From Macrotis lagotis (taxonomy: Eukaryota > Chordata > Mammalia > Peramelemorphia > Peramelidae), in the NCBI RefSeq assembly GCF_037893015.1, contig NC_133663.1, forward strand, positions 225,715,199 through 225,779,198: DNA of 64,000 nt. Direction: 5' to 3'. The notes under the pieces are model-generated. The model was not told the origin of the DNA and did no database searches. It worked only from the letters and a program-made list of their open reading frames with translations. Numbering within the stretch: the stretch's first letter is position 1; every line of letters begins with the position of its first letter. This document shows, piece after piece, positions 24,984 through 52,335 of this stretch. The position numbers and the translations under genes are program-made.

Positions 24984-25200
24984 CACACTGTCAACACTCA
25001 AAATAGTGCCTTGCCCCCAACAGACACTTGAAGGTGGGAATTAAACATAAAGGAGAGGGGAGGAGAAATGTTCTGCAAGGGTCGGCCACAGGCTCCGATA
25101 GGTGGCGCTGTCACCGCCCTCCGGCTCTGCTCCTCCTGTCGGGATCCAAGGAGAAAAGGGGAGGGGTGAGGGGGAAGGGAAGAAGCTGGGGCCGCGCCCC

Positions 25201-25252
25201 TCCCCCCGCCCCAGCTCGGCCGCCCCTCCCCCCGCCCCAGCTCGGCCGCCCA
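25201..25252. repeat. 26-bp tandem duplication carrying a GC box
   Basis: Two adjacent near-exact copies of a 26-bp unit (25201-25226 and 25227-25252). Each contains CCCCGCCCC-like and CTCGGCCGCC sequence, so a likely Sp-factor site is doubled within the CpG island. Confidence 0.8.
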
Positions 25253-25282
25253 GTCACCTGCGCCCTTTTTCCAAACCGTTAC

Positions 25283-25400
25283 CTCGCGCTCCTCCGGCGC
25301 GTGCTCGCGCTCCGGGGCGCTCCCTTCCCTAACAGCAGGCGCGCCCCCGCCGCGCAGCCGTCGCCATCTTGGCGGCCGCCGCCCCTTTCCCGCCCTCCGC
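25283..25400 (-). other. CA5B: Candidate non-coding first exon of CA5B
   Basis: On the minus strand a donor-like GCGAG|GTAACGG ends at 25283, and the YY1-type site lies about 80 bp upstream of it. A second donor-like GCAG|GTGACT lies near 25256. The 5' end is a guess. Only transcript data can fix the exon. Confidence 0.3.
25363..25373 (-). promoter_or_regulatory. YY1-type site in the CpG island
   Basis: On the minus strand the sequence reads GCCAAGATGGC, containing the AAGATGGC core of YY1 sites that often sit just downstream of the start of housekeeping genes. Its orientation favours minus-strand transcription, in agreement with CA5B. Confidence 0.5.
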
Positions 25401-25589
25401 GCGCGGCGCCACGCCCCGCCTCCTCCTCCGCCTATGGGCACGCGCCGCGGGGGCGCGCCTGGGCGGGCGCGCGGGGGCCGCGGGGGCCGCGGGCGCGCGC
25501 GGGGCCGTGAGGCCGGACCTCTAATGGGCACTCCGTGGAAATCACTTCAAGTGTAATTAAATCTCACGGCGGCCCTGCCGACCGTATTT

Positions 25590-25680: not shown

Positions 25681-25914
25681 GGGGCCCGCGGGTGAGGAGC
25701 TCCGTGTGCTGCCTCGCCCCCCGGGCTTTTCCTCGGAGGAATTGGCAGAGGGATGCCCGCTGCCTGGGCCAGTCGGGGCCACCACCCGGACCAGCCCCCA
25801 AGGCGGTCATGCGGCATCCTCGGGCTGCCCGCAGCCCCGTTCGGGCCTATTCTTTCCTGGAAGTGTCCCGTCCCAAAATTAACTTTGTGTTTCCTTTCAT
25901 TAAGAAGTCTGAAT

Positions 25915-26102
25915 CCCAGCATCCCTCTGGCCCTTAATTTTTATTTTTTTTCCTCTCCCCTTAATCGCTCATGCGGGTCTATATTTTTTTTGGGGGGGGG
26001 GGGCATTATGTTTACTCCTAAACAAGAATATTTTAGTAATGTGTTAAAAAAGCATTATTTGTACAAAATAAGAATAAATAAATAAATTTTTTTTTTTAAA
26101 AA
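25915..26102 (+). mobile_element. 5'-truncated 3' end of the composite element family
   Basis: This 188-bp insertion is flanked by the exact 13-bp duplication aagaagtctgaat (25902-25914 and 26103-26115). Its second half (atgtttactcctaaacaaga, then tttgtacaaaataagaataa) matches the 3' terminal 150 bp of the element at 44412-47612. It lies directly beside the CpG island and includes a run of about 12 G. Confidence 0.75.
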
Positions 26103-26242
26103 AAGAAGTCTGAATACACAAAAAAGAAAAAAAAATATGGTGGGACCTTCTCTCCAGCCAAAAAAGGGGCAAAGCCTCCAGTAGAGATGCTTTCTTGAAA
26201 CCTCCTAAGGGATAAATAAACATTTTTTTTCATGAAACTCTA

Positions 26243-38198: not shown

Positions 38199-38387
38199 TT
38201 AAGATTTTTTTTTAGGATTCTCTAGGTATACCATCATGTCATCTGCAGAGAGTGAGAGTTTTGTCTCTTCCTTCCCAATTCTAATTCCTTCAATTTCTTT
38301 TTCTTCTCTTATTGCTGAGGCTAACATTTCTAATACAATATTGAATAGCAGTGGTGATAATGGGCATCCTTGGTTCACCCTGATCAC
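38199..38387 (-). pseudogene. L1 ORF2 reverse transcriptase core fragment
   Basis: The 62-residue frame contains [19 protein letters not shown] and [13 protein letters not shown], the conserved RT motifs around the catalytic F/YADD box, here SADD. Flanking RT sequence continues on the minus strand from about 37250 to 39580 but is interrupted. Confidence 0.85.
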
Positions 38388-40246
38388 ATTGGGAATGCCT
38401 CAAGCCTATCCCCATTGCATATAATGCTTGTTGATGGTTTCAGATAGATACTGCTTATTATTCTAAGGAACAAACCATTTATTCCTACTCTCTAGTGTTT
38501 CTAGTAGGAATGGATGCTGTATTTTGTCAAAATCTTTTTCTGCATCTAATGATATAATCATATGATTTCTGATAGATTTGTATTCATATAATTAATTATA
38601 CTAACAGTTTTCCTAATATTGAACCAACCCTGCATCCCTGCAATAAATCCTACTTTGTCATAGTGTATTATCCTAGTGATAACTTGTAATCATTTTGTTA
38701 AAATTTTATTTAAGATTTTGGCATCTATATTCATTAGGGAGATAGGTCTATAATTTTCTTTTTCTGTTTTAACTCTTCCTGGTTTAGGTATCAACGCCAT
38801 ATTGGTGTCATAGAGAGTTCAGTCTTCACCCGTTTTTCCAAAGAGTTTATATAGAATTGGAACCAATGGTTCCTTAAATGTTTGATAGAATTCACTTGTG
38901 AATCCATCTGGCCCTGGAGATTTTTTCTTAGGGAGTTCAATAATGGCTTGTTGAATTTCTTTTTTTCAGATTGGGTTATTTAGGCTTTTAATTTCCTCTT
39001 CATTTAATCTGGGCAACTTATATTTTTGTAAATATTAATCCATTTTTCTTAGATTGTCAAATTTATTGGCATAGAGTTAGGCAAAATAATTCTGAATTAT
39101 TATTTTAATTTCCTCCTCATTGCTGATGAGTTCACTTTTTTCATTTATGATATTAGCAATTTGGCTTTCTTCTTTCTTTTTTTAATCAAATTGACCAGAG
39201 GTTTATCAATTTTATTATTTTTTTTCATAAAACCAACTGTTGGTTTTATTTATTAGTTTATTAGTTTTCTTGCTTTTGATTTTTATTAATTTCTCTTTTA
39301 ATTTTTAGAATTTAGAATTTGCTATGTAATTGGGGGGTTTTAATTTGTTCTTTCTCTAATTCTTTTAGTTGCATATTTAGTTCATTGATTTCCTCTTTCT
39401 CTAATTTATTCATGTAAGCATTTAAAGATATAATATATCCTCTGACAGCTGCCTTGAGTGAATCCCATAGGTATGTTGTTTCATTATTGTCATTATCTGG
39501 GATGTTAATTTTTTCTATAATTTGTTGTTTGATCCACTCATTTTTAAATTGAGGTTATTTAGTTTCCAATTAATTTATCCATATTCCCCAGTATTTTATT
39601 TCTGAATACCATCCTCTTCAGTGTGTTTACCCTCCTATATCAACCTCCCTCTTCTTTCCTCTTTTCCTTTTCCCCTTCTTCCCTCCCTTCCTTCTTTTAG
39701 TTCCTCTTTTTCCTCCTCCCTGTTCCCCCTTCCCCCTTTTAATACTTGAAAGGTAAGATAAGTTTCTTAACATAACTGAGTGTTTGTGTAAGTTAACTTT
39801 AAGCCAAGTCTGATGAGAAGAAGATTCAGGTGGTTCTCAGCTCCTCCCTTTCTTCCCCTCTATTACAATAGGTCTTTTGTACCTCCATGAGATTTATCCC
39901 ATTCAGTCTCCTCCATTCTCCTGTTTCCTTACTGTCTCCCTTCTTAAGGAGGTATTGTTTTTTTAATCATTCTGTCTGAGTCACAGAAAAGTCATGAATG
40001 TCCATCACTTCTGGCTAAGTATATTCTCTCTAATAGAGTTACAATTCTCAAGAGTTATGAAAATCTTTCTCTCAGGAGGGGATATAGTCTGTTTCAGCTT
40101 ATTGGGATAGCAGTCTTTTTTTCCTTTACCTTTTCATATGTCTCTTGAGCCTCCTTTTTGATGTCCAAATTTTCTATTAAGCTTTGTTTTTTTTTTTAAA
40201 TCAGGAAATGTTGGAAGTCTTCCATTTCATTAAATGTCCATCTTTT

Positions 40247-40383
40247 TTTGCAGTGGGGTTAAATGGCTTGCCTAAGGGCACACAGGTAGGTATTTTATTT
40301 ATTAAATGTCTGAGCCCAGATTTGAACTCAGGTACTCCTGACTCTAGGGTGATGCTCTATCCACTTCACCACCTAACCTCCCC
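40247..40383 (-). mobile_element. WSINE inserted in L1 ORF1 region
   Basis: Flanked by the exact 16-bp duplication taaatgtccatctttt (40231-40246 and 40384-40399). The SINE itself is somewhat diverged. Confidence 0.92.
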
Positions 40384-40889
40384 TAAATGTCCATCTTTTC
40401 CCAAGGAAGAAAAGCTTTGCTGGGGGTGGATTCTTGGCTGCATTCCATGCTCCCTTGTTCTTAGGAATATCTCATTCCAGGTCCTTCTCTTCCTTAACGT
40501 TGATGCAGCCCAGGTCCTGTGTAATCCTTACTGTGACTCTTTGGTGTCTAAATTGTTTCTTTCTGGCTTCTTGCAGGATTTTCTCTTTTATCTGATAGTC
40601 CTGGAATTTGGCCACAACATTCCTTGGTGTTTTCATTTTAGGATCTCTTTCTGGAGGGGATCAAGGTATTCTTTCAATAACGACTTTGCCCTCTGGTTCT
40701 ATGATATCAGGGCAGTTTTACATCACTAAATCCTATAATATTAAATCCAGGCTTTTTTTCTCTTCAATGTTTTCAGGAAGACCTATAATTCTCAGGTTGT
40801 CTCTCCTCATTCTATTCTCAAAGTCAGTGGTTTTGCTGATGAAGTATTTTACATTTTCCTTTATTTTTTTGATTTTTTGGTTTTGTTTA

Positions 40890-41140
40890 AAAGACTCTTA
40901 CTGTATCATGAAGTCATTAGTTTCTATAGACTCCATTCTTTTTTTTAGAGAAGAATTTTCTTCATTTACCTTTTGCAGCTCCTTTTCCAATTGGTCAGTT
41001 CTATTTTTGAAAGAGTTTTCCATTTGACCCATTGAAGTTTTGAGAGAATTATTTTCTTTTTGCACTTGTCCAATTGTATTTTCCAATGGTTTATTTTCTT
41101 GTTGCAAGGTATTAATTGTCTCTCCCAAATTTTCCAATTA
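40890..41140 (-). pseudogene. L1 ORF1 coiled-coil fragment
   Basis: A 79-residue frame with heptad repeats (LQQENKPLENTIGQVQ, RTDQLEKELQKVNEENSS) from the coiled coil of ORF1p. It lies in the expected position upstream of the RRM portion on the minus strand. Confidence 0.75.
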
Positions 41141-41574: not shown

Positions 41575-41925
41575 TTAATTTTTGAAGAACACTATGATAT
41601 CAGGGGAATGATGTCATGACAATCATGTGAATTGGACTTGAGTGAGGGGTTGCTGTACTAAGTCACCAGTCTCATTTTCTCCTCTAGAGCCACATCTTGC
41701 TACCAACCTTTATCCCAAGGTTACCCAGCTAAGATGCCATGCCCCCTTTTCATTCTAACCTTGGTGTGGGAGGTACATATGAATCAGGATGACTGGAGAT
41801 GGTTCTGGGAGAGGCAATCAGGCTTAAATGACTTGCCCAAGGTCACACAGCTAGTAAGAGTCAAGTGTCTGAGGTTGAATTCGACCTCCTATTCTCTTGA
41901 CTTTGTAGGGTTCTCTAGGTATATC
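41575..41925 (+). mobile_element. Two-module composite SINE between two L1s
   Basis: Head ttaatttttgaagaacacta to ttctcctctagagccacat, an unexplained insert (about 41698-41775), then atgaatcaggatgactggag and a reversed CORE tail gacttgcccaaggtcacaca. Confidence 0.65.
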
Positions 41926-44396
41926 ATCATATCATTGACAAAGAATGAGTTTTGTTTTTTCATTACTAATTCTAATTCTTTCAATTTCTTTTTTCTTCTC
42001 TTATTGCTAAAGCTAACATTTATATTACACCACTGAATAACAAGAATCCTTGTTTTACCTTTGATTTTATTAGGAATGCTTCTAGCTTATCCTCATTACA
42101 TATAAGGCTTCTTGATGTTTCAGATAGATTCTTCTTATCATTTTGAGGAACAATTCATTTCTTCCATTGCTCTCTAGTGTTTTGAGTATTTTGTTAAAAG
42201 CTTTTCCATCATCTGTTGAGATGATCATTTATTTCTGTTAGGTTTGTTATTGATATAGTCAATTTTCTGATAGTTTTCCTAATATTGAACTAACTCAGCA
42301 TTCACACAGCTTACTTGTTCATAGTGTATTAACCCAGTAATAACTTGCTATAATCACTTCGTTAATATTTTATTTAAAGTTTTTGTATCCACATTCAATC
42401 TATAATTTTCTATCTCTGTTTTGATTCTTCCTGATTTAGTTATCAGCACCCTATTGACTGAGTTCCTTTTTTACCCATTTTTTCAAATAGTTTATATAGA
42501 ATTGTTCAAGGAACCAATTGTTTCTTGAATGTTTGATATAATTTACTTGTGAATCCATCTGGCCCTGGTGATTTTTTTTCTGTAGGGAATTCATTGATGG
42601 CTTATTGAACTAATTTTCCTGAAATTAAGTTTTTAAATTCCTTTTCTGTGCAATTTATATTTTTGCAAATATTCATACATTTCACTTTAAAGTTATTGGC
42701 ATGCAATTTGACAAAATTGTTCCAAATTATTACTTCAATTTCCTCCTCATTGGTGAATTCACCGTTTTCATTTTTATACTAGTAATTTAGTTTTTATCTC
42801 TCCTTTTTAAATAAAATTAATGAAATATTTTATTTTTTAATAAAAACAATATTAGTTTTATTCATTAGTTCAATAACTTTCTTGCCTTCAATTTTAAGAA
42901 TTTTCAGAATTTTTTTAATTTTCAGAATTTCTAATTTGGCATTTAATTAGGAATTATAAATTTGTTCTTTCTCTAACATTTTTAGCTGCATGCTTTCCTC
43001 TTTCTCTATTTTATTCATGTAAGCATTTAGAGATATAATATATACCCTAATAACTGCTTTGGTTATATCCCATAAGTTTTGGTATGTTGTCATTGTTTTG
43101 GATGACATCATTAATTCTTTCTATGATTTTTTGTTTGATTCATTCATTCTTTAAAACAAGGTTATTTAGTTTCCAATTAGTTTTAGGTCTATCTCTCCAT
43201 GGCCCTTTATTGCATGTGATTTTTATTGTATCATGGTCTGAAAAAGATGCATTCAATATTTCTGCCTTTCTGCAAGTGATTATGAGGTTTTTAATGCCCT
43301 AATACATGGTCAATTTTTGTGTAGGTGCCGTGTATTGCAGAAAAAAAAGTTATATTCCTTTCAAACCCCTTCAATTTTCTCCAAAGGTCTATCATGTCTA
43401 AATTTTCTAATATTCTATTTACTACTTAACTTCCTTCTTGTTTATTTTATGGTTAGATTTATCTAATTCTGAATGAGGGAAGTTGAGGTCTCCCACTAGT
43501 AGAGTTTTGTTTTCTATGTCTTCCTGTAACTCATTTAGCTTGATGCATTTTGTACATACATATTTAATTTTGAAATCAATTCATTGTATATGGTACTTTT
43601 TAGGAGTATATAGTTTCTTCCCTTATCTGTTTTAAAGAGATCTACTTTTGTAACTGCTTTGTGTCAGATAAAGATTGTTACCCCTGATTTTTTCACTTCA
43701 GTTGAAGCACAATATATTCTGCTCTAACCTTTTACTTTTACCCTGTGTGTATATCTTTCTGCTTCAAATGTGTTTCTTGTAAGCAGCATATTGTGGGACT
43801 CTGATTTTTAATCCACTCCATTATCTGTTTCCATTTTATAGGAGAATTCATTCCATTCACATGCAGAGTTAAAATTACTAACTCTTTAATTGCTCTTTAT
43901 GCTATCTCCCCTCCATTTCCCCCCTTCTTTCACCTTATCCTTCCTCCCCAGTATTTTGCTTCTGAATACTGCCTCTCTCAATGAGTTTACCCCCTTTTAT
44001 CTACCCTCCTTTTCTTTTCCCTTTCCCTCTCCCCCTTCTTTCTTCCTTCCATTCTAATAGTCCCTTCTTCGCTCCCTACCCCCTTGCCTCTCCTAATACT
44101 TGAAAAGTAAGATAAATTTCTAAATTCAACTGAATGTGTGTGCTAATTCCTCTTTGAGCCAAATCTAATGAGAGTAAGGTTCAGGTGTTTCTCACTTCCT
44201 CTCTTCTTCCCCTCCCCTTATTGTAATAAGTCTTTTACACCTCTTCATGCAATGAATTTTACCCCATTCAATCTCCCCTTTCCTCCTGTCTCTTTATTGT
44301 CCTCCTTTTTAATGAAATATATTTTTAAATCATTCCATCAAAGTCATAGACGTATCATGACTGTTCATATCTTCTACCTAATTATATTCCATCTAA
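41925..44396 (-). mobile_element. L1 element, ORF2 part (3'-truncated), left of the composite insertion
   Basis: On the minus strand this holds the RT region (about 41930-43180), the endonuclease region (about 43185-43930) and the inter-ORF spacer with pyrimidine-rich plus-strand blocks. Many stops interrupt it. It is continuous with 47628-49500 once the composite element is removed, as the exact target-site duplication shows. The 3' end stops inside RT. Confidence 0.8.
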
Positions 44397-44611
44397 TAGA
44401 ATTACATTTCTTTTTTTTGCAATTCTTTTTTTAATTTATTTTTTTATTCTCATTTTGTACAAATGTTCTTTTTTACATTAATAAAATATTCTTTTTTTAC
44501 AAGTAAACAAAATACCCCTCCTCCCCCATGAATATAGATAGACTTGCTTGGGTGAAAAAAGTAAAGGGGAGAGAAAAAATTAAAATAAAAAATAAATAAT
44601 AGTAATAAATG

Positions 44612-44760
44612 TAGGTATGGCCAGGTGGCACAATGGACGAAGCACCAGCCCTGGAGCTACGAGCACCCGAGTCCATATCCAGCCTCATAAACCCAACAAT
44701 CACCCAGCCGTGTGACATGCAAGCCACCCGATCCCCACTGCCCTGCAAAAACCAAAAAAA
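44612..44760 (+). repeat. SINE-like module a within the composite element
   Basis: It aligns along its length with the WSINE-type consensus (ccaggtggcacaatgga, then gcaccagccctggag, then gcaagccaccc, then ctgccctgcaaaaacc). Differences are dominated by T-to-C on the plus strand. It is antisense relative to the host element. Confidence 0.75.
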
Positions 44761-44796
44761 AAAAGACCCAAAATAAAATAAAATAGTAATAATAGT

Positions 44797-44945
44797 AGGG
44801 GTGGCTGGCTGGGTGGCAGACAGAGCATTGGCCCTTGAACCAGGAGCACCTGGGTCCAAATTCGGCCCCAGACACCCAAAGATCACCCTGCGATGTGGCC
44901 CCAGGCAGGCCATCCAGACCCACTTGCCCTGCATCCTCCCCCAAA
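44797..44945 (+). repeat. SINE-like module b within the composite element
   Basis: A second diverged WSINE-like unit in the same orientation as module a, with recognisable ggggtggctggctgggtgg, ggagcacctgggtcc and ggccccagacaccc. Again many T positions of the SINE have become C. Confidence 0.7.
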
Positions 44946-45147
44946 TAACAATAACAAAAAATGTGTTTCAGTCTTTGTTCCAACACCAACAACTCTATCA
45001 TGGGTGGATCTCATTCTTTATGATAAGTCCATCACAAAAGTTACTTCCATATTATTCCACTGTTGCCATTGCTGATTGCAACTCCCTCCTTTCTTATTTT
45101 TCCACTACCATGTACTATATTTTCTCTCTCCTTTCACTCTGACTCTG

Positions 45148-45295
45148 CTGTAGGGTCGTTGACTGGCTCAGCATACAGATCCCTGGTCCTGGGGCCAAGA
45201 AGCCCTGAGCCCCCATACCACCCATTAAGCCCAGCATCTACCTGGCCCCATGGTCCTGGGCAGGCCTTCCAATCCCAGCCCCTTGCAAGAAGTAA
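45148..45295 (+). repeat. SINE-like module c within the composite element
   Basis: The most diverged of the three, with gactggctcagcatacagat, ccctggtcctgggg and gtcctgggcaggcc in the order expected of a WSINE-like unit. About 200 bp of unrelated spacer separates it from module b. Confidence 0.5.
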
Positions 45296-45759
45296 GAAAG
45301 AAAATGTGTTATATCTGACCAGTCTCCTCCCATGGTCCATCCTCTCCTCCTTTATTCACATCCCCACCCCTTCCCCCTGCTCCCCCCTCCTTCTTACTCC
45401 AGATGTCTATACCCCATTGAGTATATATGCTGTTTCCTCTCCTAGCCATCTCTGATGAGAGCAAAGGTTCCCTCATTCCCCCTTGCCTCCCCCTTCCATA
45501 TCATTGAAATAGCTCATTTTAATAAAAAAAAATCTTATGTGAAATATCTTGACTATTCCCCCTCTCCTTTTTCTTTCTCCCATTCCATTTCCCTTTTTTT
45601 CTATTGACTCCATTTTTACACCATATTTTATCTTCGAATTCAGCTTTCTCCTGTGCTTCAACTATAAAAGCTCCCTCTACCTGCTCTATTAACTGAGAAG
45701 GTTCACTGAGTATTATCAGTGTCATTTTTCTATGCAGGAATACATGCAGTTCATCCTCA

Positions 45760-46880
45760 TTAAATCCCTCCTATTTCCCCCCTCTCCTCCAATCTCCATG
45801 CTTCACCTGAGTCCTGTATCTGAAGATCAAACCTTCTGTTCAGCTCTGGCCATTCCAAAAGGAACATTTGAAATACCCCTGGTTCATTGAAAGTCCATCT
45901 TTTTCCCTGGAAGAGGACATTCAGCCTTGCTGGGTAGTTCATTCTTGGCTGCATTCTAAGTTCTTTTGCCTTCCGGTATATTGTATTCCAAGCCCTACGA
46001 GCTTCCAATGTAGTTGCTGCTAAGTCCTGTGTGATCCTGACTTCAGCTCCATGATATTTGAACTGTGTCCTTCTGGCTGCTTGTAATATTTTCTCTTTGA
46101 CTTGGTAGTTCTGGAACTTGGCTATAATATTCCTAGGGGTTGCTTTTTTGGGATCTCTTTCTCTGGGGGATCGGTGGATTGTCTCCATTTCTATTTTGCC
46201 CTCTCCTTCTAGAATATCAGGGCAATTTTCCTGTAGTAATTCTTTGAAAATGATGTCAAGGCTCGTTTCCTGATCATGACTTTCAGGCATTCCAATAATT
46301 TTTAAATTATCTTTCCTAAGTCTGTTTTCCATATCAGTTGTTTTTTCAATGAGATATTTCACATTTTCTTCTAATTTTTCATTTTTTTGTTTTGAAGTAT
46401 TGATTCCTGATTTCTACTAAATTCATCAATCTCCCTGAATTCTATTCTTTGTCTGAAGGATTTGTTCTCCTCAGAGAGTTTTCTTATCTCTTTTTCCATC
46501 TGGCCAATTTTGCTTTTTAAAGCATTCTTCTCCTCCATAACTTTTTGAACTGTTTTGTCCATTTGACCTAAGCTTGTTTTTAGCATGCTATTTTCTTCAG
46601 CATTTTTTTGGATTTCCTTGACTAAGCTGCTGACTTCATTTTCATGTTTTTCCTGCATCTCTCTCCTTTCTTTTCCCAGTTTTTCTTCCAACTCCCTCAT
46701 TTGATTTTCAAAGTCTTTTTTGAGCTCTGGCATAGCCTGAGCCCAATTTCTGTTTTCCTTGGAGTCTTTAGATGCAGGAGCTTGTGCTTCCTCATCTTCA
46801 GACTGAGTATTTTGATCCTTCTTGGGCTCATTTGCAAAATATTTCTCAATAGTCTTTCTTTTGTTTCTCTGCTTGCTCAT
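45760..46880 (-). pseudogene. L1-type ORF1 protein of the composite element
   Basis: L1 ORF1p is a trimeric RNA-binding chaperone that coats L1 RNA. The first part starts MSKQRNKRKTIEKYF at 46880 and is a long heptad-patterned coiled coil to about 46371. The second part (46362-45760) carries the RRM region (RKDNLKIIGMPES) and the C-terminal domain (RRTQFKYHGAEVRI, YPARLNVLFQGKRWTF). A frame change close to 46365 separates the two halves; otherwise the frame is well kept, which suggests a fairly young copy. It is about 370 residues in all, near the normal L1 ORF1p size. Confidence 0.85.
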
Positions 46881-46930
46881 TTTCCCAGCCTGGGCCTGGT
46901 TTGGGGTGCTTCCTGAGCTTTTGGGACACA

Positions 46931-47612
46931 CCCAAAAGGGTCTCAGTGTGTGAGGCTCTGTCCTCCCTCCTGGGTCTGTGAATGACCATAAGCACCTCCC
47001 TCTTTCAAATGGCTGAGGTCGGGGGGGGGGGCCTGCTGTTCTATGGGGGGACCTAGACTGGGATCAGGATCTGAATGTGGTCAGAGCCCCAGAGTCCTGT
47101 TCCAGGGGCAGGGGACCTAGCTCACAGTTTCTCTTCATTCCCCTCCCTCAGCTCAATGGGCTCATGCCCTGGAGGCTCCTGCTTACAGGCTCTGCCTGCT
47201 TCTGTTTCCTGCTCTGAGCTGCAGAAAGACCAAGCTGCTCCCTGTGTGCCCTGAGGGCTGGGCTCCATGTGCTCGCTCTGGCAGAGGTCCCCCACTGTTC
47301 CCCCACTTTATGCCTGGTGCTCCTCGGGGTGCAGCTCAGGAGACTCCCCCACTGCTGTGAGCTGAGACTCCCAGCGCCCTGGGGCTGCCTCCGGGAGGCT
47401 GAAGTTCTTTCGCTCTGGTGGGCCACCCCTCAGACCCCAGGGAGCAGAGCCTTTCTGCTCTTTTCCAGGTTACCTTGAGTAGGAGAACTGCCTCACTGGG
47501 TCCCTTTGTGGGTTCTGTCTCTGGAAAGTTTAGTTAGAGTCCATAGCTGATGAGTTTTATCAGAGAGCTCCTAAGACTGGATCCCTTCTTGTCGCCATCT
47601 TGGCTCTGCCCC
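46931..47612 (-). promoter_or_regulatory. L1-type 5' UTR of the composite element
   Basis: GC-rich segment from the 5' terminus to ORF1. Its first bases contain the CCAAGATGGC YY1-type site that positions L1 transcription. Copy 2 (52325 downwards) has the same start and a related UTR. Confidence 0.7.
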
Positions 47613-47627
47613 TAGAATTACATTTCT

Positions 47628-49500
47628 CAAGAATTATGAGAATTTTCCTACCAGAAGAGAATGTAACCAATTTAAATATATTGGATAACAGGTTTTTTCC
47701 TTTCCTCCAGCTTAATTTCACTTATCTCTATTTTCAGCTCTGGTCCTCTCATCAGAAAAGATGGAAAGTCATCTATTTTGTTAAATGTCCCTTTTACCTT
47801 GAAAGAGAGGGCTCTATTTTGCTGGATTGTGGACTCTTGATTTTAATCTAAGCTCTCCTGCTCTCTAGAATATCATATTCCAGCCTTTGATCCCTTAATG
47901 TTGATGCAGTCAGATACTGTGTAGTCCTGACTGGCTCCTTGGTATTTGAATTGCTTCTTTCTGACTGTTTGCAGGATTTTCTCTTTTATCTGTTAATTCT
48001 GGAGGTTGGTCACAATATTCTTTGATGTTTTCATTTTGAGATTCTTTTCAGGAGGGGATTGATGTATTCTTTCAATGACTATTTTGCCCTCCGGTTGCAG
48101 GACATGAGGGCAGTTCTCCTTAACTGTATCCTGAAGAGTGGTCCAGGCTTTGTTGTTGTTGTTCAAGGTTTTCAAGTAGTCCTGTGATTCTAAAATTTCC
48201 CCTTATAGATCTATTTTATTAGTCAATTGTTTTACCACTAAGGTATTTTACATTTTCTTCTATTTTTTTTATATTTTAAAATTTTATTAACACATTCTTG
48301 GTGTCTCATGAAGTGTTTAGTTGCTACAGATCCCAAACTTTCTTTTAGAGAAGAATTTTCTTCATTTACCTTTTGCATCTCCTTTTCCAATTGGTCAATT
48401 CTATTTCTGAAGGAGTTGTCATCTTTTTCCATTTGTCCAATTGTATTTTTAAGGGAATTATTTTCATTTTACATTTGTTCAATAGTATTTTGAAAGAATT
48501 TTTTTTCTTCTGTCATTTTACGTTGTAAGATGTCAAATTTTTTTTATGTTTCTTTTCCAAATTTTTCCTTTCAATTTTTAAACTTCTTTATGATCTCTTC
48601 TAAGAAGTCTCTCTGCACTGGATAACATTTCATAATTTCCTCTAAAGCTTCACATATAGCATATCTTCTGTCATCCTTTTCTGAGCTAGTGCTTTTATTT
48701 CCAAAGTAACATTCAAAATATTCTGCTTTGAACTTATCTTTCTTCATTTTGGCTCTTCACCCTAAGGTCTTGTATTGGGGGAAGGGGCTGGTTTGCAAAC
48801 TTTCTGTGTTGATAACCCTAGAGGCCCTGCTCACTGGGGTTAGGAACTATAGGGGTTCACTCAATAGACCCACCAGCAAGATTTCTCTGGATTGTCTGTA
48901 CTGGAGGCTTCAGTGGCCCACTCCCTAGACCTGGGGCTAGATTTGGGTTGTCCTCACATAATTCGGGCTAGGCCTTCAGGGTTAGAAATGACAGAGGATC
49001 TCTCTGGATAGTTAATGCTGGGAAAGATCTGCTTCCCACATCCTGGCCTTAGGGCAAAGTGAGAACACCTAGAGCTGTGTTTGAATTTGTACTGGAGAAA
49101 TCCAGGCCCTCCCACAGGAACTCCATGGGCTTCTCTGGTAACATAGGGGCTCATGGTCCAGGCCAAGTGGGTGTCCTGAGCAGCCACTCTGGAGCTCTCC
49201 CAGTCCATACACCATCCACACCACAAAGACTTCTGCTACGGTACTCAGGTAAGTCCCTGACCTCACTCTGCCACCTGTTTGCATGGTCTCTGCTCTCTGC
49301 CCTGTATGTCCATGCTCCCCTATGGCAGACCTTGCTGGAAGATGTCACCCTCTGTTCTTCTGAATGTTCTGTCCATCCAAAATTAGTTAAGAGGCCTGAC
49401 TCATGTTGGTTTTTAGGGAAAGTCAGGAGAACTTATAACAGTATCTGGCTTCTCTTCATCATTTGGTCAGAAGTCTGTTCATACAATAGTACAATAAGTA
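47628..49500 (-). mobile_element. Same L1, ORF1 and 5' UTR part
   Basis: On the minus strand, from right to left, it holds a GC-rich 5' UTR (about 49500-48720), the ORF1 coiled coil (RIDQLEKEMQKVNEENSSLK near 48350) and a degraded ORF1 RRM and C-terminal region (about 48240-47700). The 5' limit is not sharp; it could extend to about 49610. Confidence 0.75.
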
Positions 49501-50394: not shown

Positions 50395-50485
50395 TATGAT
50401 CATAGCTTTTGATCTGGAAGAAACCTTAGAAGTCATTATATTCAATCACCTCATTTGATAGATAAGAAAACTGAGCAATAGGTCA
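50395..50485 (-). mobile_element. MIR-like fragment
   Basis: tctggaagaaaccttagaag, then cctcatttgatagataagaa and aactgagcaatagg. Confidence 0.5.
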
Positions 50486-50766
50486 TTGTAATAAAGGAAG
50501 ATCTTATTATATGAAATATCTTATCCTATTCCACCTCTCCTTTTTCTTTCTCCCATTAGATTTCCCCTTTTTCTATTGACTCCATTTTTACACCATATTA
50601 TATCTTCAAATTCAGCTTTCTTCTGTGCTTCATCTATAAAAGCTCCTTCTGTCTGCTCTTTTAAATGAGACATTTCATATGAGTATTATCAGTATCATTT
50701 ATCTATACAAGAATACATGTAGTTCAACATTAAGTCCCTCATATTTTACCCTTCTCCTCCACTCAT

Positions 50767-51415
50767 CTATGCTTCACCTGAGTCCTGTATTTGAAGATCA
50801 AACCTTCTGTTCAGCTCTGGCCATTCCAACAGGAGCATTTGAAATTCCCCTGGTTCACTGAAAGTCCATCTTTTTCCCTGGAAGAGAACGTTTAGTTTTG
50901 CTGGGTGGTTGATTCTCGGTTGCATTCTAAGTTCTTTTGCCTTCTGGAATATTATATTCCAAGCCCTGCAAGCTTTTAATGTAGTTGCTGCTAAGTCCTG
51001 TGTGATCCTGACTGCAGCTCTATGATATTTGAATTGTGTCCTTCTGGCTGCTTGTAATATTTTCTCTTTGACCTGGAAGTTCTGGAACTTGACTATAATA
51101 TTCCTGGGTTTTTTTGGGGGGATCTCTTTCTCTGGGAGATTGGTGGATTCTCTCAATTTCTATTTTGTCCTCTGTTTCTAGGATATCAGGGTAATTTTCA
51201 TGTAGTAATTCTTTGAAAATGATATCAAGGCTCTTTTCCTGATCATGGCTTTCAATTATTCCAATAATTTTTAGATTATCTTTCCTAAATCTGTTTTCCA
51301 TATCAGTTGTTTTTTCAATGAGGTGTTTCACATTTTCTTCTAATTTTTCATTCTTTTGGTTTTGAAGTATTGTGTCCTGATTTCTTGTAAAATCAGCAGC
51401 CTCCCTCAGTTCCAT
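50767..51415 (-). pseudogene. ORF1 remnant of the second composite element
   Basis: Overlapping frames encode EKTTDMENRFRKDNLKIIG (RRM start), RRTQFKYHRAAVRITQDLAA and HPAKLNVLFQGKRWTF (C-terminal domain). A frame change lies near 51100. The coiled coil continues beyond the inserted SINE to about 52010. It is close in sequence to the ORF1 at 45760-46880. Confidence 0.75.
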
Positions 51416-51685
51416 TCTTTGTCTGAATGATTTGTTTTCCTCAGAGAGCTTTCTTATCTTTTTTTTTCCATCTGGCCAATTCTGCTTTTTAAAGCATTCT
51501 TCACCTCCTCAATAACTTTTTGAACTGTTTTATCCATTTGACCTATGCTGGTTTTTAACTTGTTATTTTCTTCAGCATTTTTTTGGATCTCCCTGACTAA
51601 GCTGCTGATTTCTTTTTCATATTTTTTTTTCCTGCATCTCTCTCATTTCTTTTTCCAATTTTTCTTCTATCTCCCTCACTTGACA

Positions 51686-51846
51686 ATTTTTTTAGGTTTT
51701 TTTTTTTTTTGCAAGGCAGACAGGGTTAAGTGGCTTGCCCAAGGCCACACAGCTAGGTAATTATTAAGTGTCAGAGACAGGATTTGAACCCAGATACTCC
51801 TGATTCCAAGGTTGGTGCTTTATCTACTATGCGACCTAGCCACCCC
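51686..51846 (-). mobile_element. WSINE inserted in composite element copy 2
   Basis: A long T-run, then gcaaggcagacagggttaag to gacctagccacccc, splitting the ORF1 coiled coil. Short shared flank cttgac. Confidence 0.9.
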
Positions 51847-52335
51847 TCCTTGACTTTCAAAGTCTTTTTTTAGCTCTGTCATAGCCTGAGCCCAATTTCT
51901 GTTTTTCTTGGAGTCTTTAGATGCAAGAGCTTGTACTTCCTCATCTTCAGATTGAGTGTTTTCATCCTTCTTGGGATCACAGGCAAAGTATATTTTCTCT
52001 GCTTACTCATTTCTCCAGCCTGTACCTGGTTTTGGGGTGCTTCCTGAGCTTTTGAGTATTATTCGGACACAGCCCCCCCAAGGGTCTCAGAGTGTGAGGC
52101 TCTGTCTTCCCTCCTTGTCTGTGAATGATCATAAGCCCACCTCTCTGCCATGTGGCTGAGGTGGGGGGGGCTGCTCTTCTATGTGGGGCCTAGACTGCCA
52201 TCAGGATCTGAATGTTGTCAGAGCCCCAGGGTCCTGTTCCAGGGACAGAGGACAGAGCTCAGCAGTCTCTCTCCCTCCCTTCCTTAGGCTCAGCACTCTC
52301 CTGTTGCCATCTTGGCTCCGCCCCCCCCCTTCTTT

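Follow-up and report, generated by a model that had tools for sequence, protein, structure and literature searches.

We identified, at positions 44412-47612 of the window (the whole stretch of 64,000 nucleotides of Macrotis lagotis DNA analysed here), a 3.2-kb element that with a probability of about 0.9 is a copy of a HAL1-type family, i.e. a non-autonomous L1 derivative that encodes ORF1p only, carries three antisense SINE modules as ancestral parts and would depend for its movement on ORF2p supplied in trans by a two-ORF L1 resident in the genome. A half-L1 lineage would then have taken up antisense SINEs and gone on to make thousands of copies, and the 'half-L1' and 'composite' designs would be combinable in one parasite of L1.

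Organization of the element and its insertion site

The element reads on the minus strand, with its 5' end at 47612 and its 3' end at 44412. It is flanked by an exact 15-bp direct repeat (TAGAATTACATTTCT), the target-site duplication (TSD), found at 44397-44411 on the 3' side and at 47613-47627 on the 5' side. The insertion target is an older, decayed two-ORF L1 on the same strand (41902-48509), whose ORF1 side lies near 47628-48509 and whose ORF2 side lies near 41902-43880. A paralogue of this L1 within the window (38209-41100) contains an empty site at 39941-40127, where the joined flanks match in 136 of 187 alignment columns and the junction is crossed without a gap. The exact 15-bp duplication that a preliminary description of this DNA had placed around the element is thus confirmed, together with an uninterrupted paralogous site.

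From 5' to 3' the element comprises a 5' UTR of ~730 bp (46881-47612), which starts with GGGGCAGAGCCAAGATGGCGAC, by its likeness to other L1s what we take to be an L1-type 5' terminus; ORF1 (45763-46880), encoding 370 amino acids in the family majority sequence; a purine-rich region (45311-45762); module C (45151-45310); a non-SINE spacer of 200 bp (44951-45150); module B (44797-44950); module A (44612-44775); and a 3' end region (44412-44611) that contains AATAAA and has an A-rich terminus. The modules, recognised by their similarity to the SINE consensus, lie on the plus strand, antisense to ORF1, and module C is the most changed of the three; all other parts lie on the minus strand. The 5' boundary is defined by the starts of 21 copies, which fall on element position 1-3 in 20 of them and on position 13 in L025, and the 3' end region is common to other retrotransposed copies. 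The spacer is shared with an older, module-free ORF1-only family, and for the purine-rich region a related sequence lies between the two ORFs of the older L1 (62% identity with window positions 44048-44236 over 192 alignment columns). All the parts named in the preliminary description are therefore present: the L1-type 5' terminus, 5' UTR and A-rich 3' end, which read on the minus strand, and three spaced SINE-like modules, whose common orientation is antisense to ORF1. An A/T-rich stretch that precedes module A recurs between A and B (44577-44797), as a 28-nt near-repeat that flanks module A (44577-44604 and 44770-44797, 86%). Searches of the window against Rfam (at gathering scores) and with ARAGORN gave no matches.

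Copies in the host genome

In the host genome (3.66 Gb searched) the best 40 of 9,748 candidates for the 5' part of the element are 91-100% identical to it, the window included. For an 899-bp query covering modules and tail the best 40 of 6,582 candidates, again including the window, are 92-100% identical, and each covers at least query positions 28-899. Twenty further copies were fetched as the best of the 39 non-window scored matches to the 5' part, with ~7 kb extra on the 3' side; being the best matches to the window copy and not a random sample, they favour young copies. All three modules are present at a coverage of at least 90% in 16 of the 21 copies including the window (15/20 further copies). 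The common 3' end is reached by 18 of the 20 further copies (19/21 with the window), L018 and L021 stopping early, and internal gaps occur in L022, L023 and L026. A TSD of its own was recognised by one rule for 16/21 copies, as against 3/420 in a control with flanks mixed between copies; the same rule found none for L010, L011, L017, L021 and L024. The ORF1-only composite family proposed in the preliminary description is borne out by this shared order of ORF1, modules and tail in copies of which 16 have their own TSDs. Mean identity of the 21 copies to their majority sequence is 95.3-98.3%, depending on the region.

With 32-base probes and at most 2 mismatches, the internal spacer has 12,335 places in the genome, the junction between module C and the spacer 9,261 and the 5' start 2,742; each reversed-pattern control has 0. 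The junction and 5' start numbers are probably undercounts, since both of these probes contain CpG.

ORF1 and the absence of ORF2

In the window copy one frameshift near 46390 divides ORF1 between two frames that overlap (45760-46413 and 46371-47063), and there is no internal stop. The C-terminal piece matches the Pfam families Transposase_22 (E 6.7e-15) and Tnp_22_dsRBD (E 9.4e-8) and, in the PDB, LINE-1 ORF1p (best E 9.6e-30); no Pfam family matched the N-terminal piece, and the viral contigs scanned with the ORF1 piece gave no match. With a single frameshift and these matches to L1 ORF1p, the frame agrees with its earlier description as nearly intact. ORF1 is open over 370 codons in the majority sequence of the 21 copies, and full-length by the longest frame in 1 of them (L020).

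Against the ORF1 of L037 and L038, two two-ORF L1s of the same genome, we obtained a dN of 0.24-0.25 and a dS of 1.8-2.2 over 209 and 215 C-terminal codons. The resulting dN/dS of about 0.11-0.14 indicates that constraint acted on ORF1 during most of the time since its divergence from L1. The low ratio may date partly from before the loss of ORF2, because the within-family comparison is not significant (copies versus majority 278:110, old versus young 16:9, p 0.49), the latter being 16 nonsynonymous and 9 synonymous differences between the old and young majority ORF1 over 139 codons.

When two pieces of ORF2, taken from a two-ORF L1 of this genome, were searched by tblastn, they matched 0 of the 21 copies (two of them 3'-truncated) but did match the older host L1, which served as positive control. 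The absence of ORF2 stated in the preliminary description, which had named an ORF2 at this place in other copies as evidence against its proposal, holds across this set. An ORF1 and an ORF2 in one unit, as in an autonomous L1, are not what the element contains. On one contig (C1), the distance between the 5' start and the internal spacer probe is 2605-2630 bp for 5 of the 11 exact 5' starts in the range where the matches listed for the two probes overlap, the other six being without an exact partner among the matches listed; the majority sequence predicts 2614 bp. This spacing speaks against an ORF2, because an ORF2 would add thousands of bases.

Resident two-ORF L1s

Two loci with long frames, L037 and L038, were read from among 150 matches listed for the reverse-transcriptase family; both are two-ORF L1s. 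They are 94% alike over 6.8 kb, which suggests fairly recent activity of an L1 that could in principle act in trans. Their ORF1 DNA is 65-68% identical to that of the element, and the L038 protein shares 62% amino acid identity with the ORF1 product over 159 residues. The sequence CCAAGATGGCG is found near the 5' end of L037. No match to L037 or L038 was obtained at E 1e-4 for the 5' UTR and the non-SINE 3' parts of the element, and the 3' UTR of both L1s differs from that of the element. L037, L038 and the older L1 at 41902-48509 have a related ORF1 but, unlike the element, contain an ORF2.

From the TSDs, the A-rich ends and the presence of two-ORF L1s that are 94% alike we infer that the element presumably depends on such an L1 of the same genome for mobilisation in trans; the different 3' UTR of L037 and L038 counts against this. 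In such a scheme ORF1p would bind its own RNA, the ORF2p of L1 would prime on the A-rich tail of the element RNA, and the modules would ride along as 3' UTR with no pol III function.

Source and age of the modules

The window contains 16 clear copies of a standalone SINE that is tRNA-type and short and has an A-rich tail; these are 84-97% identical to their own consensus. Identity to the same consensus is 75% for module A, 70% for B and 57% for C. The GTTC motif of the tRNA-type box B is altered in every module, and because of this a pol III function of the modules appears unlikely. Modules A and B probably derive from one SINE, since most of their changes are in common, and instead of two insertions the pair may represent a tandem duplication at an AAT-type repeat.

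A piece in L026 led to an older subfamily, whose main aligned pieces are 77-90% identical to the young majority. Modules C, B and A are in place in L040, L042, L043, L044 and L046, the older copies of sufficient length; L041, L045 and the L026 piece, whose sequence begins in the spacer or beyond it, have B (only part of it in L026) and A. A still older ORF1-only family, represented in L022 and L025 and related to the element at about 66-70%, has ORF1, purine region, spacer and 3' end without modules or ORF2 (the L025 stretch starts at the end of ORF1), and module C is absent at its point in both. When the 831 bases at the end of the L022 copy were compared with the genome, 18 others among the 43 matches listed (self included) span at least 700 query bases. 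These relatives measure 766-867 bp, which leaves no room for the three modules or an ORF2; six of the 43 rows are three pairs of split matches, in which insertions may be present. The modules are thus ancestral parts of the family and not later insertions, because the older subfamily has them and the still older ORF1-only family is without them. As these module-free relatives already had no ORF2, the antisense SINE sequence joined a lineage that was ORF1-only by then. One module-free copy ends in A-rich sequence followed by a fragment that by eye resembles the middle of L1 ORF2.

Two other histories of the element have to be weighed at this point. The modules are SINE-like, the genome is dense in the same SINE type and an imperfect 28-nt repeat flanks module A, as would be expected if ordinary SINEs had inserted into the window copy after its arrival. 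We give this next to no credence and rejected it, given that the same modules occupy the same places in independent insertions, namely in 16/21 copies, 40 scored matches and the older copies, and that they are 57-75% identical to a consensus which the window SINEs match at 84-97%. Later SINE insertions had also been named in the preliminary description as an outcome that would count against the composite; with the modules shared by 16/21 copies and by the older subfamily, they are not what is found. Alternatively, the element might be a deletion product that arises again and again from a living two-ORF L1 and not one ORF1-only lineage; in favour are its ORF1, which is an L1 ORF1, and the relationship of the sequence that follows it to the stretch between the ORFs of a two-ORF L1. 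The copies, however, agree in their junctions and in their 3' end, the two two-ORF L1s that were read, although a closer one may exist, are only 65-68% identical in ORF1 DNA and differ in the 3' UTR, and the module-free ORF1-only family, related at about 66-70%, argues for a long history apart. Recurrent deletion is therefore improbable, and a single ORF1-only lineage with ancestral modules is preferred.

An early A-to-G burst in the modules

On the SINE strand, 1,112 of 2,089 T sites are changed to C in 74 places inside element copies, compared with 101 of 1,888 T sites in 67 SINE-like places outside them. At most 4 of up to 29 T are changed in 66 of the 67 outside places; the sole outlier (L026:5872-6035, 19/29 and hence 19 of the 101) is module A of an older element copy. 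T>C on the SINE strand corresponds to A>G on the sense strand of the element. For states common to the old and young subfamilies, the modules show A>G at 37/79 sites, G>A at 5/105, C>T at 7/104 and T>C at 8/90. Outside the modules, comparison with the module-free relatives gives A>G at 41/226 and G>A at 40/167; this rests on seven old fragments from six loci and on an alignment that is loose in the 3' tail. The difference in A>G between modules and non-module sequence corresponds to an odds ratio of 4.0 (p 2e-6).

An A-to-G bias of the whole element was rejected, as the changes outside the modules are balanced, and so was an ongoing bias, as the module changes between the old and young subfamilies are not rich in A>G. 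The burst was thus early and confined to the SINE parts, because non-module changes are balanced and no excess is seen after the split of the subfamilies. The SINE parts are those parts of the element that are able to pair with SINE RNA.

Modules A and B have 10 of 11 comparable changed sites in common (p 1e-4, or 0.02 with the 5' neighbour fixed), for which duplication of one already changed SINE is the best reading. The overlap in changed sites between module C and the other two is only at chance level, and C is less specific, with 11 A>G among 39 ancestral changes. An independent change of A, B and C was withdrawn for A and B once the ancestral states had been separated. We propose that module C was the first SINE to insert, and that a second SINE would have been changed by the A-to-G burst and then duplicated to give A and B.

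RNA editing of the modules is possible. ADAR may have hyperedited the modules (A to I, read as G) during pairing of the half-L1 transcript with SINE RNA, and reverse transcription of this edited transcript may then have founded the family of thousands of copies, a scenario that we put forward tentatively and regard as doubtful. The main rival, to which we give distinctly more weight at somewhat under even odds, is that the excess is not due to editing and that the modules come from an extinct SINE subfamily which on its own strand already had C at those places. A common source of this kind predicts the 10 of 11 comparable changed sites common to A and B. The neighbouring bases bear on the same question. 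ADAR has an expected neighbour preference; in the modules C is disfavoured as the 5' neighbour (5/26 changed versus 32/53 for other bases, p 0.0007) and G is not (7/12 changed), so that the expected ADAR pattern is not clearly seen, and the avoidance of a 5' C is also explained by CpG loss. Against an extinct subfamily stand the 66 of 67 outside SINE-like places with at most 4 changed T, the one outlier being itself a module, and the chance-level agreement of module C with the changed sites of A and B. If the editing scenario is correct, an RNA-editing scar was fixed and amplified in a genome, and editing possibly freed the element from dsRNA sensing or from pairing with SINE transcripts. The confined early burst is a test case for whether RNA editing of a retrotransposon transcript can be inherited and amplified.

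Relation to known elements

HAL1 elements are described in sections of PMC5322556 and PMC5753468 as L1-derived, encoding ORF1p only, with a poly(A) tail and TSDs and dependent on the RT and EN of L1; several independent origins in mammals are reported there. The present element has, like these, an L1-type ORF1, no ORF2, an A-rich 3' end and its own TSDs. It is unlike HAL1 as described in having three antisense SINE modules fixed in the 3' UTR, a distinction drawn between descriptions. A paper by Bao and Jurka from 2010 is said to treat the origins of HAL1.

The composite construction of the SVA type is seen in the ORF1 unit and the three SINE modules, which keep the same order across copies. 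The Alu-like part of SVA is antisense. SVA and the gibbon elements LAVA, PVA and FVA are, according to a portion of PMC5753468, composite, L1-mobilised and in part derived from a SINE (Alu); the element is likewise a composite with SINE-derived parts and would likewise be moved by L1. SVA contains hexamer and VNTR repeats and a HERVK10-derived part, again as described in that portion of PMC5753468. The element differs from SVA in having an L1 ORF1 unit as its base and in lacking a tandem array: Tandem Repeats Finder reported 0 arrays in 44412-47612, leaving no counterpart of the SVA-type VNTR. Of the preliminary proposal that the element combines the HAL1 and SVA ideas, the ORF1-only composite moved as a unit stands, whereas the element resembles SVA only in the way it is put together.

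In layout and by eye, the standalone SINE of the window resembles short marsupial CORE-SINEs such as WSINE1. For SINEs of this kind an excerpt of PMC3403934 describes a tRNA-related part, a short conserved core and a poly(A) tail, and expects propagation by L1. The modules themselves are 57-75% identical to the local SINE consensus. Such an element was not found described in the titles and abstract beginnings of the open-licence literature, which is no proof of its being unpublished. By the features tested, the element is a variation on known kinds, HAL1 and composite, and not a new kind.

Other copies in the window and early-stopping copies

A second copy of the family is present at 50477-52330 on the minus strand, 87% identical over 1.2 kb and 80% over a further 470 columns. 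It is without everything 3' of position 45508, i.e. the 3' third, has one SINE inserted inside it and another at its 5' edge, and shows no TSD recognisable by eye. A 5'-truncated insertion that consists of the 3' end of the family only lies at 25902-26115 with its own TSD (AAGAAGTCTGAAT), close to a CpG-rich stretch (~25080-25500) that by eye resembles a promoter CpG island.

The two copies that stop early, L018 (587-1910) and L021 (6554-8581), have a normal 5' end, stop inside the element and carry no A tail. Their TSDs measure 16 bp in L018 and 10 bp in L021, the latter failing the TSD rule. Both resemble the 'tailless' L1 products described in a section of PMC5322556.
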